Source: Tunicatimonas pelagia
Lineage (GTDB): Bacteria; Bacteroidota; Bacteroidia; Cytophagales; Cyclobacteriaceae
Assembly (NCBI RefSeq): GCF_030506325.1
Contig: NZ_CP120683.1
Coordinates: forward strand, 6,700,501 to 6,764,500
Length of the DNA: 64,000 bases
Direction of reading: 5' to 3'
The position numbers and the translations under genes are program-made. This document shows, piece after piece, positions 35,100 to 43,296 of the stretch. A model generated the notes under the pieces. That model did no database searches and was not told the DNA's origin. It was given only the letters and a program-made list of their open reading frames with translations. Within the stretch, counting starts at the first letter, position 1, and every line of letters begins with the position of its first letter.

Positions 35100-35747
35100 A
35101 TGTCTATACCGCAACCTGAAAGAAAACGTAACAACGCAGCTAAGCAAAGGTTAGCACTGCCTTATTTTGTTAACTTGCTGAAATTCAGTATGCTGACTGG
35201 GCTATTGACTTTGTGCTCTGTAAATTTAGAGGGGCAGACGCTTAATTACTTCTACCACGTTGCTGTTTCCAATGACTATAGTATTAACTCCATTACGGCG
35301 ATCTTTCAGGATGAGCAGGGCTTCTTGTAGTTCGGAACCCGCGATGGTCTTTTTTGGTATAATGGCATCGAGTTCAAGTGGTCTGAGGCGATCAATCGTT
35401 TTCTTCAGGAAGCCGATTATACTGATATTACATCGCTCTTCTTAGACGGTGCTGGAAAGCTCTGGATAGGCGCTGCCGCCGGAATCACTATCTACGATCT
35501 GGCGAAAGAAGCGATTATAGAAGAGAACAATCCTTTTGTCAACACGCATCAGGTACTGGCCATTGGTAGCACGGCCGACAGACAGATGTTGATCGGTACC
35601 AAGCGTCATTTTTTTGTGCTGGGAAAAGAAGATCAGTTACATCAAGTATATTTATCAGGGGAGTCCCGCGATTCGCTGCACCGTATTCGTACGATCTACC
35701 CAACCCCGGAAGGTAACCTTTGCTTAGGATTCTACCTTCCTAATTAA
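35100..35747 (+). pseudogene. Decayed two-component sensor N-terminus (ligand-binding propeller)
   Basis: The start encodes a basic stretch, a membrane/signal segment (KFSMLTGLLTLCSVNLEGQ) and then the propeller motif NSITAIFQDEQGFL followed by TAG where Trp is expected, and FGTRDGLFWYNG continues in the same frame. A further 138 codons follow with another propeller blade (DGAGKLWIGAAAGITIYDL) to TAA at 35745-35747. Intact hybrid sensors of this type run to over 1000 residues, so both a nonsense mutation and loss of the 3' part have occurred. It is the N-terminal fragment of a reg_prop sensor kinase. Confidence 0.8.
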
Positions 35748-36541
35748 TTCTGCTTGTTCCATTTTTTCTAATTTTAAAATCGATGAATCAAAGTTCAGAG
35801 ACAGGAAGTAAGATTCTTTTAACAAATGTTAAAAAAGGCTGAGTAAGCAGTAGGACAGAATTAAATTGATAATAACCATTTAGATAGAGGGGAAACATAA
35901 ATGCTGAAAATCCCCCTAGCCCCCTTTTCCAAAGGGGGAACGTATAATGTATTTTTGTCTTAGTGCTTACTTGGTCAAGTTTGCCTACAGCTTTAAAAAA
36001 GCGACTGTCGCACAGTAAAATAGCGACTCAATATAACTTTAAAGACTAGCTTACAGAGGAGTCAAATTGTTACATTATCGTGTTTATATTAATCACAAAT
36101 CGCTGTAATAGCACTTCGCTCAAAAACCGATGAAAATTTGGCAACCGAATTTTCCTCTCTGAGAATTCACTCCGGATCAGGGCGGACTTTTGCCCTGCTT
36201 TCTCCCTAATTCTCTATAGCTAACAAATAAAGTTTCGTGTCGAGAAATAAAGCCAAATTATCTGCATTTGATGTAAATCTGTTAGAGCATGTTTAAGTTT
36301 TGTTTTTGATGGCGAAAATTCAAGATTTGATTGCTGAACGAGTCAATTTTTGAGGGAATACCTGAGCTATGGCCGATAAAATTGGTGAAGTGCAGCGATT
36401 AAAGATGAATTTGCTTTGTATCAAAGCGGAAAACAGCAAATTGCACAAGCGAGGAGTTATCCTTATTCTACTGAGCGTTCCACCGTGGACGCGGGGTCGC
36501 CTTTTTAGAGCTACAGGCTAAGAATATCAAGTTAGTAGAAA
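35748..36541. other. Long non-coding stretch after the sensor fragment
   Basis: No intact gene is visible on either strand. It contains a G/C hairpin (35920-35938), a short inverted repeat around 36178-36197, and near 36293-36345 an A/T-rich sequence beginning GAGCATGTTTAAG that might be the end of an insertion element. That last point is a resemblance only. Confidence 0.5.
35920..35938. repeat. Perfect short hairpin of REP-like type
   Basis: CCCCCTTT and AAAGGGGG flank a three-base loop. The surrounding text (TCCCCCTAGCCCCC...) resembles dispersed G/C hairpins seen in many Bacteroidota and cyanobacterial genomes. Confidence 0.55.
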
Positions 36542-38719
36542 TTACGGAGCTGGAGAAAGAAATTTACGGAATTGATCGAGCGGAGTAAGTGAGTCAGTGT
36601 GGTAGGTAAGTTTTTTGCGTACCCACTCGCTCGCTCGGACAATGGTACCTTTACTTTGTTCGGCCTGATGGTAACTTTGCAGCAACTGAAAGTAGATGAG
36701 CAATTCTTCTGCTTGTGCTTCGGATAAATAATACTCCTTGCTTTTTGTAACCTTTAATGATTGAAAACTAGAATGGAGAATAAAAGTGAACGAAGGGCCT
36801 GCCTGAATAGCGTCTTGGGTAAGTAGCTGATTGTCAAAAAATAATTCGGGCGGTAGCGCAACGGAGGTTAGCTGTTGCCGCTTTTTATCATACACCTGGA
36901 AGCTACTTTTCAGGTTGCTTGGAGGGGTATTAGCTTGCGTAATGAAAGTATCGGCTGAAACGTACTTTCTAAAAGCTTCTGGGTTGTAGTAGAACGGATA
37001 GCGAAGTTGGGACAGGAAAGTTGTATCCCGACTTAGAACATCCTGATAGTTAATGGTGGTAGTGCTATCGGTACTCCAATAGTCGAGGATAATCTTGGTG
37101 GAATCAGCCCAATCGGTAAATGCTCGCTCATTATTGGGTAAATTTACCAAAAAGGTATCAACCACTTGTACATTCATGGTAGCTAAATGCCGGAGAGCTG
37201 CGTTGTACTCCATCATAAACTTCAGTGAATCTTCGTACCAGAACCTTGGGTCTTTGTAGGCTACTAGCTGGTGCTGATCGCTCGGTTGGGCATGAGACAT
37301 ATTCCAGCGTACCTGTTTCAGTAATTGACGTTCGTGTTGATCTACCGTAGAGTCCAATCCAATCTGATAGGTCAGAGTTGAAAAGTAGTTGAAGTGCTGA
37401 TCGGTTCCTTCAAAGCGAAGTTTTCGTAACCTCCGGAGTGATTGTCGGCGGATGCTATCCAGTTCAGTGGTTAGTTGCTCATTGCTGGTTCGGTTGGTGA
37501 CCGCCTGGGTAAGAGAGTCGACTCGGCGACTTTCTTGGGCAAGTATTGAATCAAGCAGTAGTCCTTCGTAGTAGTTGATGTACTCGTCTTGGGCAATTTC
37601 CTTTACAGTTTGAGTCAGTATATCATTATGAAAATGCACTCGTTGGATTTTTTGCCCGGTAACTAGAGAAAAGAAACTTTTGAGGGTTTCGGCACCCTGC
37701 TGCTGGGCTTGATCGATAATTTGCGCTTGGTGGGCGTAAAATACTAACTTTTGAATGCAGTGCTCTTTTACTCGCTGGGCATCTTTAAAGTTTACAGGGC
37801 CTTGGTAATTAATGATATCGAATCCGGGTACGCCTCGCTCAGGTATAAACCAGGGGTTAATATCGGCATCCAGAATTTGAGGTTCCAGCCCAAAGAAGTG
37901 AAGCTCGCCGGTTTCCTCGTGCAAATAAAACGAGTTTTCGTCAAGCTGATCAAAATTAAAGCCCGCTTTTACCCAGCCTCTTCCTACCAAGGCCAATTGC
38001 TTCTTACGCTCCGCGCGGGGTAGTGCCGATTTTTGCTCACCGAAAAAAAAGTCTCGGAAACTAGCCACAAATTCAAATCCATCATTAAGGTAGTCCTGAA
38101 ATGCTTCATCTTCAGATGACTGTCGCCGAGTGGTTAATTCTTGGTAGAGATTGAGTAGTACTTCGGCCTCGGTACGGGCATCGGGGTTCCAGTTTTCTTT
38201 TTCCGAATGCAAATATTTATTTCGCCACAAAAACTCAATTACCGGTGAGTAAAGTGCGTGTCTTGCTAAGCTGTCAGTTAGGTTAAGAAATTCTAGCTTC
38301 TCTATGATATTGCTGCGCCTGACGTTTTGCAGGGCTTTTCTTTTCAAACCATCACTTCGTCGGTTCTCGGCCAAAAAATTTTCGCGTCGCTCTCGCTCAG
38401 GGATTTGCTGGTATTGGTACAAATCATAGAGTGCGTACTTTACCTCGACATAAAGTTCATTGGCTAGCTGTTGCGTATTGTTCTCTTCAATCAGCACAAT
38501 TCTCGATTCATCTAATGATGAAATTACTTCGCCGTAGTATTCGGCCGTTACCAGCTGGCCAATTTTCTGTACTTCGGTCACCATGTTGGTGGTCGTTCCC
38601 AGTTGTAATCCGCTGCCGAATATGCCGAATGGATTAACAATAAATAGCAATACCACCAATGCAATCACCAAAAGTACATCCAACAAAAATCGCCAGTTAC
38701 CAAAGAGTAAGCTAATCAT
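36542..38719 (-). CDS. Large membrane-anchored protein with DUF4230-like segments
   Basis: 725 residues. One N-terminal helix (FLLDVLLVIALVVLLFIVNPFGIFG) anchors a long, mostly helical, charged region. Two stretches recall DUF4230: the opening TEVQKIGQLVTAEYYGEV, and a later block with KAGFNFDQLDENSF and LEPQILDADINPW that parallels KAGVDLSQIGESDV and LPPVKIINFSYP in the next gene. There is no catalytic motif. Fourth gene of an operon with peptidoglycan hydrolases; it overlaps the DUF4230 gene by 8 bp. A structural or scaffolding envelope role is inferred. Confidence 0.78.
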   Translation of the reverse strand: MISLLFGNWRFLLDVLLVIALVVLLFIVNPFGIFGSGLQLGTTTNMVTEVQKIGQLVTAEYYGEVISSLDESRIVLIEENNTQQLANELYVEVKYALYDLYQYQQIPERERRENFLAENRRSDGLKRKALQNVRRSNIIEKLEFLNLTDSLARHALYSPVIEFLWRNKYLHSEKENWNPDARTEAEVLLNLYQELTTRRQSSEDEAFQDYLNDGFEFVASFRDFFFGEQKSALPRAERKKQLALVGRGWVKAGFNFDQLDENSFYLHEETGELHFFGLEPQILDADINPWFIPERGVPGFDIINYQGPVNFKDAQRVKEHCIQKLVFYAHQAQIIDQAQQQGAETLKSFFSLVTGQKIQRVHFHNDILTQTVKEIAQDEYINYYEGLLLDSILAQESRRVDSLTQAVTNRTSNEQLTTELDSIRRQSLRRLRKLRFEGTDQHFNYFSTLTYQIGLDSTVDQHERQLLKQVRWNMSHAQPSDQHQLVAYKDPRFWYEDSLKFMMEYNAALRHLATMNVQVVDTFLVNLPNNERAFTDWADSTKIILDYWSTDSTTTINYQDVLSRDTTFLSQLRYPFYYNPEAFRKYVSADTFITQANTPPSNLKSSFQVYDKKRQQLTSVALPPELFFDNQLLTQDAIQAGPSFTFILHSSFQSLKVTKSKEYYLSEAQAEELLIYFQLLQSYHQAEQSKGTIVRASEWVRKKLTYHTDSLTPLDQFRKFLSPAP

Positions 38720-39323
38720 CAGTGGTGGGTGAGGTGAGGTTCACTTTGTCTATCAATAATTCATCACTACTGAAAGAGATATACACTTCCTTATAGTTGA
38801 GAGAACGAAGTAATTGCCGAAGCAAGGTGCGGGTATGGTTTTGCGTAGTCTCCACAATACCCATGTATTCCAGGTTATTACGAATATCTAGCTCAGCATT
38901 CCGAAAAAACAGCTCCTGATCAGCCACACTAATGCTATTTAAAAAGGTTTTGGGATCAGAAATGACGGAATCTTCCTGGAAGCTACTGGGAGGATACGAA
39001 AAATTAATAATTTTTACCGGAGGCAATCGTAACGTAATTTTCTGCCCCTCAATCTTAACATCACTTTCTCCGATTTGTGATAAGTCAACTCCGGCTTTAA
39101 TTTTGGCTTGAGAGTAGGCTAAAAATCGGGCCTCGTTAAGCTTAATGAACCAAGCAATCTTTTTGGTTTTGGTGCCGTGAACAATTTTCTCCACGGTAAA
39201 CTCGGTAGTGGCCAAATCGCTGGCTTGCTGAATTTTTCCTACGACCAGGCTACGATCTTCTGGCTGGCAGGCTAGAAGAAATACAATAATTCCCCAAGGT
39301 AGAAGACGACGAAGCGGTATCAT
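38712..39323 (-). CDS. DUF4230-family lipoprotein
   Basis: 203 residues with a probable lipobox (VFLLACQ, Cys19). The body has the DUF4230 pattern: TTEFTVEKIVHG, a LAYSQAKIKAGVDLSQIGESDV core, ITLRLPPVKIINFSYPP, and a helical C-terminus with conserved pairs of basic residues. The family's function is not established. It overlaps its neighbours by 4 bp (upstream) and 8 bp (downstream), so translation is coupled with the hydrolase gene and the large membrane protein. Confidence 0.78.
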   Translation of the reverse strand: MIPLRRLLPWGIIVFLLACQPEDRSLVVGKIQQASDLATTEFTVEKIVHGTKTKKIAWFIKLNEARFLAYSQAKIKAGVDLSQIGESDVKIEGQKITLRLPPVKIINFSYPPSSFQEDSVISDPKTFLNSISVADQELFFRNAELDIRNNLEYMGIVETTQNHTRTLLRQLLRSLNYKEVYISFSSDELLIDKVNLTSPTTDD

Positions 39324-41752
39324 ACGCTAAACTTCTGGTTGATTTCTCGTATAATTGAGAAGAGGCAACGGGCAATCCGGCGCTGGCCTTGCGAACTTAG
39401 TAAGAACTCGGCTTCCAGGCGATTATCGTAAAAAAGATTTTCTACTAAGAACGCGGAACCCCGGGTTTTACGCAGTACGTAAAACGTCTCGCTTTGATGC
39501 TTCTTCTCTTTGTCTTCATCGCCGTCGGTCATATCCTGCCGAAACTTGAATTCAGGAAACTCTCGCTTATACCATTTGGCAGCAATGGTGGCTAGCTCGT
39601 CACTGGTAGTCTGTCCTACACTAGTCCATACTTCAAAGCCTGAAGCGTTTTTTCCCGTTCCGGAAGTTTGGTTACTGGCCGCATTACTGTGAATGGATAA
39701 AAGGTAGTAATTTTGATTGCGGGTGTATAGCTGATTGGCTACGTTCACTCGGTCAGTTAAGCTAACATCCTCCTCTTCGTCAACCGTAAGGTTGTGGTAG
39801 GGGATACCTGCTTCGTCGAGCAACTCAATAAGCTGCTGACCAATTTTTCGGTTAATAACTCCCTCAAAAATTTGGGTGCCATCCTCAAAAGTATATTGCT
39901 TTCCCTGGGTATTGTACTGGTTGTCCGACATGCCACCGTGTCCCGCATCAATAATAGGTATAAATCCGGTGGGTGTTTCTTCTTTGTCTCCCGAATATAT
40001 TTCTACGTATTTGCGGTAGGCGGTTCTTAGCTTAAGGTCGTACTGGTTACGTTTGTAGCCCGAGCCATTGTATCCGAACGCAAAGCGATCCCAATCGTAG
40101 TTACCCCGATTTTTTTCCGAGATAAAATCCACTAAGGGCGTTCCATCTACTTGCTTGGTTTTAATAAATGCTAGAAAGTCGAGGAAGTGATGGTACTCTG
40201 ATACTTCTTGTTTACGCTCAAAGTCTTCGTAATCACGATAGTACAGGTCATCTTGAGCAGCACCTTTCCTGACTCGTTCTCTCAGATTATGCTCCAGGTT
40301 TTCGCCTAACATCTGAAACAATCCCCAAGAAGTAGCGTACACCGCCGACTTAGCATCGATAGTCCGAGCTAGCTCTAGTCGTCGGTACTCATCTTCTCCT
40401 CCTAAGTAGTGCTCGGTGGTCCAACGAGAATATACAATTGAAGGGTGCCTACGTTGCCAATTCTTTATTTCAGCCTCTGTAAACCCCTGTTTTTTCAGCC
40501 AGTACGAAAAACGATGACCTTCAAAGAGAATTTTGGGCTTTCCGTTAGGCAGATGACCCTGCCCCGATGATTCAACTTCTACTACCGCTCGCACCACGGG
40601 CATGGTAAGTTCAATTCCTTCTTCTTCCTTCAGTTGGGTTAAGGCTTGTTTTATCTCTTCGTCGCTTAGTACTTTACTGTGTATGTTATCTCGCACCTGT
40701 ACAAACCCACCCTGTAGTTGAACGGGCAGGGGCGACAAAGCTGATTCTGAAAGCTGATTTCGGACTTGCGTGAGTGGAGTAGGGGATGGCTCCGGTTCTC
40801 CTTCTAGTTGATCCATTTCCCAGTTTTCTAACTGTAGCAATTGATCATCAGACTCTATTCCTGTGGTTGAGAAACCGGTTGCTGGTTCTCGGGTAGAAGG
40901 TTGCTTAGATTTAATCCAATTGCCTTCTTCATCTTTCACTTCGGGGGCATTGGTCGTCCACCGACGCTGTAAATACTTGAGGGATTTATCCCCGAAGTAA
41001 AAAGCAATCATCATCAAGAAAGCCGTTTCAAAAAATTCAAACTGCTGACGAATAAGGGCTAGTTGGTTTCCGGTGTAATACTCATTTCCAAAGCTGACAA
41101 TGAGTAAAGAAAGTCCGCCTAGCAGTAACGTAAAAGCAATCATGCCGCGAACCGTACCGGGGGGTAATCCGAAGGTTTGGCTACGGTAAGGGTTTTTGTC
41201 AGGAGCTTTTACATCTTCTGGGTTTACCGGAAAACCCATCTTTTCTCGCTTGCGGGCCGACTCAATTTTCTCCCAGTCTTCGTCGGTTAGGCCGTAATTG
41301 ATATTGTAGTGGTAGACCGACCACATAAAGTAGCGAAGGAAGACCGCTACCCAAATTACGGAAACGACAAGTCCGAGTGCCTGAAACAAATTTTCGTGAT
41401 GAAGGTATACCAGTAATGCTCCTACCAGCCCTACCAGCGTAAGTACAATTGTTAGCAAGCGTGTTCCGGTAAAGAAAAAATTGTGGTGTGGGTTTGGTCG
41501 CCCATCGGTACCCAAATAACTTGTTCGGAGATGTCTAATGCTCAGCCACATAGTAGTTCCTACCGTAGCGATAAGAGTGATCCCGATAAATACTCCGCGT
41601 ACGTCGTCTTTAACCCCCCAAGCTATTAGCAAGATTAGAAATAGCGCGATAAGCAGTGTCCCACCGAGTTGAATAAGTAAGATTTTTGTCGGTCGCTCAG
41701 AAAACCGATTAGTGAGTCGCTTAAGCCAGGTCGAGTCCTCAGAATTTTTCAT
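39320..41752 (-). CDS. Six-TM protein with muramidase and amidase domains
   Basis: 810 residues. Six hydrophobic segments (about 24-46, 53-72, 97-117, 123-145, 200-221, 237-255) precede a linker. A PF11860-type N-acetylmuramidase domain spans about 370-585 with probable catalytic Glu394 (VEVESSG). An Amidase_3 domain spans about 597-805 with zinc ligands His605 (DAGHGG), Glu630 and His688 (SIHSNAA) and catalytic Glu771 (VENLF). Both cleavage types (glycan strand and peptide stem) are thus on one membrane protein. It overlaps both neighbours by 4 bp. Such a layout is unlike ordinary autolysins and suggests a dedicated wall-remodelling or lysis role. Confidence 0.88.
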   Translation of the reverse strand: MKNSEDSTWLKRLTNRFSERPTKILLIQLGGTLLIALFLILLIAWGVKDDVRGVFIGITLIATVGTTMWLSIRHLRTSYLGTDGRPNPHHNFFFTGTRLLTIVLTLVGLVGALLVYLHHENLFQALGLVVSVIWVAVFLRYFMWSVYHYNINYGLTDEDWEKIESARKREKMGFPVNPEDVKAPDKNPYRSQTFGLPPGTVRGMIAFTLLLGGLSLLIVSFGNEYYTGNQLALIRQQFEFFETAFLMMIAFYFGDKSLKYLQRRWTTNAPEVKDEEGNWIKSKQPSTREPATGFSTTGIESDDQLLQLENWEMDQLEGEPEPSPTPLTQVRNQLSESALSPLPVQLQGGFVQVRDNIHSKVLSDEEIKQALTQLKEEEGIELTMPVVRAVVEVESSGQGHLPNGKPKILFEGHRFSYWLKKQGFTEAEIKNWQRRHPSIVYSRWTTEHYLGGEDEYRRLELARTIDAKSAVYATSWGLFQMLGENLEHNLRERVRKGAAQDDLYYRDYEDFERKQEVSEYHHFLDFLAFIKTKQVDGTPLVDFISEKNRGNYDWDRFAFGYNGSGYKRNQYDLKLRTAYRKYVEIYSGDKEETPTGFIPIIDAGHGGMSDNQYNTQGKQYTFEDGTQIFEGVINRKIGQQLIELLDEAGIPYHNLTVDEEEDVSLTDRVNVANQLYTRNQNYYLLSIHSNAASNQTSGTGKNASGFEVWTSVGQTTSDELATIAAKWYKREFPEFKFRQDMTDGDEDKEKKHQSETFYVLRKTRGSAFLVENLFYDNRLEAEFLLSSQGQRRIARCLFSIIREINQKFSV

Positions 41753-42537
41753 ATAGCTTGTGGTTGGAATTGCTCAAACCAGTCTTCGTCTACGATACGA
41801 ATTGTTACTGCTTCCTTGATTTGAAGCAGGGCGCTAATCTTTTTGTATAGTCGCTCGAAGGCTAGGCGAGAATCAGTAATCATTTTATGAGAAGAGGAGG
41901 CATTTACTCCATCGGCAATAAGTAAGCAGCCATCGGTATCAGTATGTGTATTGCCAATATGGATGTAAATATTTTTGAAGCTAGGTACGTCTTTAAGTTC
42001 CAGATGATACGTAAACCAGGGGAAGCGTTGGCGATAGCTTTCCGTAAGGGGGGTATCTTGTTTTCTGTATTCAATTTGGTAGGTTCCGGAAGGAATACGG
42101 GTTTTACCCGCTACTTTCTCTGGTTGATGCGTATCTTCTAAGGTGTACGCAAAGAATTTCTTATTTAAGAAAATCAACCCTAATGAAGTATGGCCATCAT
42201 CCAGGTAGCGCAAAACTGTCATAATACTGCCCGATGCAAGATTATTCACTCTCTCTTCCTGTTCAAGTTTGCGTTCTAGCTCTACCACTCGTTGCGATAG
42301 TGGATTATCAATAGCTAGAGAAGGGGAGGTAACCGTAGAAAGCGACTTTGTTCTATTGGATTGGGGGTTTACGGAAGCTACGATAGCTTTAAATCCCTTT
42401 TCCAGTAATAAAATAACGTAGCCAATGAAACCAATTATCCAGAGCCATATTTCTTCCAGCAAGGTTGGGTTTGCTAAAAACAGAAGTATTACCGTGGTAA
42501 GAAGGGCTACAAAAAGTAAAGCTGCAACGTGTTTCAA
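41749..42537 (-). CDS. Membrane-anchored DUF5675 protein
   Basis: 262 residues. Two N-terminal helices (about 3-22 and 31-46), a short coiled coil (LSQRVVELERKLEQEERV) and a DUF5675-like domain at about 104-250 with KTRIPSGTYQIEYR and IHIGNTHTDTDGCLLI (His193, Cys204). The H...GC arrangement recalls L,D-transpeptidase-like active sites; DUF5675 proteins are often found near phage-type lysis genes. It is first in the four-gene operon, overlapping the hydrolase gene by 4 bp. Confidence 0.82.
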   Translation of the reverse strand: MKHVAALLFVALLTTVILLFLANPTLLEEIWLWIIGFIGYVILLLEKGFKAIVASVNPQSNRTKSLSTVTSPSLAIDNPLSQRVVELERKLEQEERVNNLASGSIMTVLRYLDDGHTSLGLIFLNKKFFAYTLEDTHQPEKVAGKTRIPSGTYQIEYRKQDTPLTESYRQRFPWFTYHLELKDVPSFKNIYIHIGNTHTDTDGCLLIADGVNASSSHKMITDSRLAFERLYKKISALLQIKEAVTIRIVDEDWFEQFQPQAI

Positions 42538-42876: not shown

Positions 42877-43296
42877 TTGACCTATCCTGAGTGCCCCCGT
42901 TGCCAATCTACTTCCGTAGTGAAAAGTGGCATTGTGAACGATAGACAACGTTTTAAATGCAAACGCTGTAAATATTCATTTACTGTCAACAAGCTAGGTA
43001 AGCAAATTGATAGCTACTACGTCATCAAAGCATTGCAGCTCTACCTGGAGGGAATTAGCTATCGTGAAATTGAGCGGTTGCTCGGAGTCAGTCATGTTTC
43101 GGTAATGAACTGGGTACGCAAATACCGTATTAAAGCCCCCACTCAGCAAGACTACCGCCCCACTTATAAAGTCCTTAATCACGCTGAACTGAGCACATTT
43201 TTTTCTCAACCCCACAATCTTCAAGGAGCCGGTATGATTGTAACCGAAGTGGGTGATAAGTATATGCTCATTAAGTGGGAACGGTTTAAGGATTAA
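42877..43296 (+). CDS. InsA-like zinc-ribbon/HTH protein, probable domesticated regulator
   Basis: 139 residues; start TTG at 42877, since no ATG fits before the zinc ribbon. CPRCQS...CKRCKYSF is an IS1 InsA-type zinc ribbon (about 6-35), followed by a helix-turn-helix (KALQLYLEGISYREIERLLGVSHVSVMNWVRKYR, about 50-84). The C-terminal 45 residues are not a transposase part, and no DDE catalytic gene or terminal inverted repeats are present. It is therefore more likely a transcription factor derived from a transposase, probably acting on the acetate cluster that follows. Confidence 0.75.
   Translation: MTYPECPRCQSTSVVKSGIVNDRQRFKCKRCKYSFTVNKLGKQIDSYYVIKALQLYLEGISYREIERLLGVSHVSVMNWVRKYRIKAPTQQDYRPTYKVLNHAELSTFFSQPHNLQGAGMIVTEVGDKYMLIKWERFKD

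Follow-up and report, generated by a model that had tools for sequence, protein, structure and literature searches.

A conserved four-gene membrane and peptidoglycan-hydrolase operon in Tunicatimonas pelagia, a candidate holin-endolysin-spanin-like cassette of Bacteroidota chromosomes

Type 10 secretion systems (T10SS) combine holin, endolysin and spanin in cassettes that are not phage-borne, and they release proteins by lysing a subset of cells (PMC10847048), and a natural fusion of holin to endolysin has been described in Clostridium sporogenes (PMC9527704). Here we compare with these systems a four-gene operon (genes A to D) in a 64,000-nucleotide window of the Tunicatimonas pelagia genome (NZ_CP120683.1, positions 6,700,501 to 6,764,500; coordinates below are those of the window), which joins membrane proteins, fused wall hydrolases and a lipoprotein. 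We favour, at about even chances, the reading that this operon is a vertically inherited chromosomal cassette of holin-endolysin-spanin-like (i.e., type 10 secretion-like) design that opens the envelope, most probably by lysing a subset of cells, and releases cytoplasmic material. A sequence-only reading of the window had proposed a dedicated module for lysis, release or wall remodelling; the proposal is partly supported and fits the evidence assembled here, with lysis a possible outcome.

The four open reading frames (ORFs) lie on the minus strand and, as had been noted from the sequence, overlap by 4–8 bp (A–B and B–C by 4 bp, C–D by 8 bp). Among 59 relatives searched, 12 other genomes contain D; there tblastn placed A, B and C next to it with the order preserved as far as the contigs reached, the exceptions being divergent forms in two genomes (G300 and G340). 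When 85,000 genomes were scanned with a D alignment, 62 loci emerged, mostly in Cyclobacteriaceae and other Cytophagales, but also in Aquimarina, in Bacteroidales metagenome-assembled genomes (MAGs) and in single MAGs of KSB1 and Chlorobiota. The order A–B–C–D on one strand holds in all 52 complete loci (51 plus that of the window), with median intergenic gaps of 7, −4 and −4 bp, and pairwise distances among the four genes correlate (Spearman 0.65–0.83). Profiles made separately for D and for the membrane domain of B (here called BTM) were also run against an independent, unbiased sample of 241 genomes of the order; BTM was present in 11 and D in 10, with both in nine, BTM only in two and D only in one (Fisher p = 8e-14). 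Conserved co-occurrence was the check that the sequence-only reading had asked for, and it is clearly borne out. What that reading thought would count against a system, scattered homologs or a match to a known locus, was not found: the four genes keep together, and no prophage, described autolysin or injection-system locus was found to have this set.

All four genes are under purifying selection (dN/dS 0.02–0.19 for close pairs), and BTM is rare at the scale of the phylum (3/395 genomes). In many Cyclobacteriaceae the operon occupies the same chromosomal place, adjoining a divergent two-gene pair (k5–k4), from which we conclude that it is inherited vertically in this family; as the k4/k5 and k7/k8 neighbours are absent in other lineages, they reflect synteny and not function. 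No gene family besides the operon's own recurs next to the loci across lineages. One contig, labelled “Rickettsiales bacterium NP5” (L087), resembles Marinoscillum (L110) in its operon and in a neighbour gene and is probably mis-binned.

The hydrolase is exchanged freely across relatives, as counted over 57 loci with BTM. Protein A carries a DUF5675 domain in 48 of these, and the enzyme content of B varies among a muramidase, an Amidase_3, both, a muramidase with a second DUF5675, or none, with BTM kept even in the forms without any enzyme. A separate Amidase_2 gene stands in the operon at 15/20 loci with an enzyme-less B versus 0/37 with an enzyme-bearing B, and a signal peptide is absent from all 16 separate Amidase_2 proteins (read by eye). 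In L092/L155 an endolysin with peptidoglycan-binding and CHAP domains follows D as a replacement hydrolase, and at two others (L093, L094) DUF5675 is the sole remaining wall domain. The two-helix hairpin of A likewise occurs as a stand-alone protein of 66–165 aa (L092, L099, L105, L112, L116, L119). A hydrolase that is fused to the membrane domains in some genomes and encoded next to them in others suggests that BTM and the A hairpin deliver a wall enzyme, and the replacement pattern points to an endolysin.

Pfam bears out the family assignments first made from the sequence alone (DUF5675, muramidase-amidase and DUF4230; Table 1), with the divergent DUF4230 of D falling just under the cut-off (E 9.5e-6, 26.2 bits vs. 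27). In B, the Glu of VEVESSG in the muramidase is invariant (31/31), as are the expected zinc His/Glu/His and the late Glu of the Amidase_3 (9/9 for each), whereas BTM matched no Pfam or PHROGs family. Of the six transmembrane (TM) helices originally proposed for B, five are clear and the sixth (TM6) is only weakly hydrophobic. The count of Lys plus Arg per loop (2.0 before TM3, then 0.3, 5.5, 0.8, and 3.9 after TM6) fits an N-in/C-in topology; were TM6 not to cross, the enzymes of B would be periplasmic and the idea of a held endolysin would fail for this protein. A short BTM-like stretch (GLGLPKGSVRSMLALLIVGA, E 2e-9) is also present in a 141-aa protein of a genome without the operon (L150, 5012-5437), and the motif may thus be wider than this system.

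Gene A offers the firmer topology and, beyond the sequence-only reading, a candidate enzyme. Its two strong helices are separated by a short acidic turn and have positive ends on both sides, and because of this positive charge an N-in/C-in arrangement with a cytoplasmic DUF5675 domain is supported. The AlphaFold2 (AF2) model of A (mean predicted local distance difference test, pLDDT, 82.9) gave no useful match with Foldseek alone; when the Foldseek candidates were realigned with VIA-align 2, 43 chains of the L,D-transpeptidase (YkuD) type came out on top over residues ~100–254, at Z values (5.6–7.8) that all stay below 8, and the first unrelated row followed at Z 4.2. Among 48 homologs, conservation of His193, Gly203 and Cys204 is 90% or higher, in the form H.GN...T.GC, so that a catalytic-type His and the Cys of an (S/T/D)GC motif are both present. 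With moderate confidence, then, we assign DUF5675 a YkuD-type L,D-transpeptidase fold; the domain is probably itself a wall enzyme.

The remaining two proteins form a DUF4230 pair. The lipobox of C is recognised in nearly all of 62 homologs, and D, with conserved motifs TAEYYGE, GRGxVKAG and DINPWF, is modelled by AF2 as a mixed alpha/beta multi-domain protein (pLDDT 85.2) whose body is predicted to be periplasmic. C and D are homologous to each other, i.e., large folded paralogues. Beyond DUF4230 neither Pfam nor PHROGs returned a family for them, and PHROGs gave nothing of weight. Three of the proteins had been thought to have or resemble wall-active or phage-lysis-associated domains; wall-active domains stand for A and B and not for a third protein, as we found no evidence tying DUF4230 to the cell wall. 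Three other leads on this pair were dropped: the best structural matches of D were 14-3-3 helical arrangements (Z ~6, stretch 365–520), regarded as chance in a comparison that barely probed the DUF4230 part; a ring-nuclease winged-helix match at residues 659–706 of D (E 0.0012) lay below the cut-off and was judged chance as well; and K-(D/E)2 following the lipid Cys, as a signal for surface export of C, fitted only 10/58 proteins.

The pair also occurs outside the operon, a point that the sequence-only reading did not contain, just as it did not contain the exchangeable hydrolase. In two Bacteroidales/Bacteroidetes MAGs (L111, L117), C and D stand alone beside genes for an EngB-like GTPase, a ribose-phosphate pyrophosphokinase and a ribosomal protein L25-like product (identified by eye), and the T. 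pelagia genome itself encodes a second, single DUF4230 protein with an N-terminal TM helix and no operon partners (L149 4395-5024, contig C1 near 4551448). Conversely, C and D are missing from a second lineage (L151, L153, L058), which keeps the A hairpin and BTM and has, in place of the pair, a secreted coiled-coil protein whose TM helix is C-terminal; BTM is fused to a muramidase and DUF5675 in L151 and L153, and the muramidase is a separate gene in L058. The short contig of this divergent L058 locus also holds a ThsB-type TIR protein (873-1310; PF08937, E 4.4e-12). At L112, an extra 79-aa protein with an N-terminal TM helix and a coiled coil, i.e., an i-spanin-like layout, lies between the BTM gene and C (2106-2345). 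These coiled-coil replacements (L151, L153, L058, L112) hint at an envelope-bridging role, and no more than hint.

The enzymes and the rest of the operon differ in their relation to phages. The enzyme domains of B group with phage endolysins in PHROGs, and its muramidase matches phage endolysins including those of Polaribacter phages that lie in lysis-type gene groups. DUF5675 occurs in 167 phage records (identity up to 44%); one of these places it within a cassette with an annotated Rz-like spanin, and in two others that were inspected it lies among portal and capsid genes. IMG/VR, on the other hand, held no relative of BTM or D, 50,697 phage records had no match for BTM or C, plasmids had none for D, and no phage genes lie near the operon; a prophage or mobile origin was rejected because BTM, C and D had no match in the phage and virus collections searched, and D none in plasmids.

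The mechanism that we favour builds on what is observed directly, namely a conserved operon with recognisable enzyme families, exchange of endolysin modules, membrane parts and C/D that are absent from the phages searched, and purifying selection. A and B would lie in the inner membrane with their DUF5675, muramidase and amidase domains on the cytoplasmic face, away from the wall, a placement that is supported for A and for the separate amidase and tentative for B. Upon a trigger, the A hairpin and the B membrane bundle would permeabilise the membrane or flip, the fused enzymes would reach the peptidoglycan, and the wall would be cut by these exposed enzymes of A and B; the inner-membrane-anchored D and the lipoprotein C, through their DUF4230 domains, would couple the inner and outer membranes or gate the enzymes. 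The pore or flip action, the part given to C and D, the lytic outcome, the trigger and the cargo are what we infer. Tentatively, we also see a distinct possibility that this is a lysis or release machine of bacterial make whose membrane parts are not phage-derived, in which BTM and the two-helix anchor carry interchangeable endolysins and the DUF4230 pair does the work of a spanin, phage-type hydrolases having been recruited repeatedly around a core that was kept.

Several observations weigh against the favoured lytic reading. The weak TM6 makes the placement of the B enzymes the main mechanistic uncertainty. No holin or spanin family was recognised in A, B, C or D (Pfam, NCBIfam, PHROGs), cargo genes and regulators are not conserved next to the loci, and two BTM loci (L089 and L109, the latter on a cut contig) have no hydrolase nearby. 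C and D stand alone among housekeeping genes in Bacteroidales, and DUF4230 is also known from Streptococcus mutans, a bacterium that lacks an outer membrane (PMC13041782); together these argue that DUF4230 did not arise for outer-membrane disruption. Nor are contractile-sheath genes associated with the operon (7/13 genomes with it vs. 6/19 without, p = 0.28). As the sheath genes show no association, a release module for contractile particles was rejected; the T. pelagia genome itself has no PF04984 sheath gene.

The main rival is a constitutive wall-remodelling complex, in which the A and B enzymes are periplasmic and C and D organise or restrain them in growth, division or the assembly of large envelope structures, with no lysis or release. 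The single chromosomal place kept vertically in Cyclobacteriaceae under strong purifying selection, the lack of cargo and of phage membrane parts, a weak TM6 that permits a periplasmic C-terminus of B, and the DUF4230 proteins that exist without any hydrolase are all as this explanation would have them. However, the charge pattern of A and the 16 signal-less Amidase_2 genes argue for cytoplasmic enzymes, free exchange among five phage-type hydrolase families, often with at least two cleavage specificities together, is unusual for a housekeeping enzyme, and the rarity of BTM in the phylum speaks against it too; we consider such a complex possible but rather unlikely. Cytoplasmic enzymes could instead process muropeptides at the membrane for peptidoglycan recycling, given that the Amidase_2 resembles AmpD-type cytoplasmic amidases (motif read by eye) and that some YkuD-fold enzymes are carboxypeptidases. 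Yet the muramidase and Amidase_3 act on the polymeric wall and not on imported muropeptides, BTM resembles no transporter family, and C and D would be left without a role, which makes recycling a very slim prospect.

Opening of the envelope need not be lytic: as a secretion gate, a holin-like flip of the fused hydrolases would open the wall locally for one or more large proteins, with C and D sealing or guiding the passage. Flipping of the C-terminus has been proposed for fused holin-endolysins (PMC9527704), and fusion on B fixes the ratio of membrane part to enzyme at 1:1 in 37 loci; with no conserved cargo gene adjoining the operon, and with later work finding the action of T10SS to be lytic (PMC10847048), we regard this gate as improbable. 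Phage defence, here as an anti-phage or abortive-infection module in which infection triggers lysis, was among the options raised at the outset and found no support. The patchy distribution and the TIR-like ThsB gene near the divergent L058 form could be cited for it, but the chromosomal place is the same across many Cyclobacteriaceae genera, neither a sensor nor a regulator gene belongs to the unit, PADLOC gave it no match of weight, and only the operon's own genes recur beside the loci across lineages, so that the chance of a defence role appears slim. Least probable of all, to the point of being almost negligible, is a prophage remnant or a phage lysis cassette domesticated whole: its enzyme domains are of the phage endolysin type, but BTM, C and D are unmatched in the phage and virus collections searched and the neighbourhood is free of phage genes.

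The operon is flanked by ordinary chromosomal genes (HmuY, a TonB receptor, a LuxR-type regulator, an SSF transporter and an acetyl-CoA-synthetase-like enzyme). Between the LuxR-type regulator and the operon, the plus strand at 35100-35760 holds what looks like a pseudogene: the remains of a regulator-propeller-type gene (DEQGFL*FGTRDG), interrupted by an in-frame TAG and ending early. On the other side, a 139-aa protein adjoining the operon (42877-43296, plus strand) has a weak InsA/IS1595-type zinc ribbon and a helix-turn-helix and may be a transposase-derived regulator or an insertion-sequence remnant.

Table 1. Features of the operon in the window, and loci of the second lineage in their own coordinates.
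Feature	Position	Strand	Basis or remark
Gene A, ORF, 262 aa, TTG start	41749-42537	minus	
A two-TM hairpin, residues 1-50	42388-42537	minus	Hydropathy and charge over 52 homologs
A DUF5675 domain, residues 108-235	41833-42216	minus	PF18925, E 7.1e-26
Gene B, ORF, 810 aa: multi-TM domain, linker, N-acetylmuramidase, N-acetylmuramoyl-L-alanine amidase	39320-41752	minus	Pfam
B membrane domain (BTM), residues 92-264, motif NPYRSQTFGLPPGTVRG...TAFLMMIAFYFG	40961-41479	minus	Common to all B forms
B muramidase domain, residues 380-582	40007-40615	minus	PF11860, E 7.1e-49
B Amidase_3 domain, residues 600-798	39359-39955	minus	PF01520, E 2.5e-21
Gene C, ORF, 203 aa: DUF4230 lipoprotein, lipobox Cys19	38712-39323	minus	PF14014, E 4.4e-31
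Gene D, ORF, 725 aa: single N-terminal TM, divergent DUF4230 with helical insert, variable C-terminal region	36542-38719	minus	Pfam, AF2
Second lineage: A hairpin with coiled coil, secreted coiled-coil protein with C-terminal TM, and BTM	L151 5557-8244; L153 5929-8914; L058 4253-7618		C and D absent

Should the operon prove to lyse or open cells, Bacteroidota would have in it a chromosomal system for programmed lysis or secretion; our literature searches found no such cassette described for this phylum. In keeping with the initial impression that no named system has this set, no described counterpart was found, and literature searches on DUF4230, DUF5675 and Bacteroidota lysis cassettes returned no description of the four genes together. 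If the reading is true, it would also provide the first functional setting for DUF4230, and for DUF5675 outside phages, and would mean endolysin delivery by fusion to a membrane domain across a whole family. Cultured hosts exist in Echinicola, Cyclobacterium and Aquimarina, and the system can be tested now.

Measured against described proteins, the DUF5675 domain shares its predicted fold and His...GC motif with the YkuD-type L,D-transpeptidases (YkuD, LdtMt2, Csd6, Tlde1a), but its Z values are modest, its His-Cys spacing is shorter and it has no membership of their Pfam family above the cut-off. The C–D pair recalls phage two-component spanins (Rz/Rz1) in combining a protein with an N-terminal TM helix and a lipoprotein, in the overlap of their genes and in coming last in a lysis-type operon. 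It departs from them in size and make (725 and 203 aa of folded DUF4230 protein vs. a coiled coil and a short Pro-rich peptide), in the mutual homology of its members and in the presence of DUF4230 in Firmicutes; the model of D contains no coiled-coil i-spanin domain of phage size, and neither C nor D matched a spanin family. With the C. sporogenes holin-endolysin fusion (TpeE family) the operon shares a membrane segment joined to a C-terminal endolysin (PMC9527704). That fusion, however, belongs to a Gram-positive bacterium and has a single short TM segment with an amphipathic helix (PMC9527704), whereas the membrane domains of the operon have two and approximately six TM helices and belong to another family, two enzymes are fused, and an envelope-spanning pair is added. 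Among the closest in overall design are the T10SS of Serratia (ChiWXYZ) and Yersinia entomophaga (YenLC), which are likewise chromosomal non-phage cassettes of one or more membrane proteins, a signal-less endolysin and a pair of inner-membrane protein and lipoprotein. The operon resembles these in lying outside a phage genome and in its endolysin-type hydrolases, the separate amidases being signal-less throughout. It differs from them in that its endolysins are fused to membrane domains, its C–D pair consists of large DUF4230 proteins, neither cargo nor regulator genes lie beside it, and Pfam, NCBIfam and PHROGs recognise in it neither a holin family nor a spanin pair. On this comparison, the best fit is an operon that would work like T10SS and holin-endolysin fusions without belonging to either by homology.

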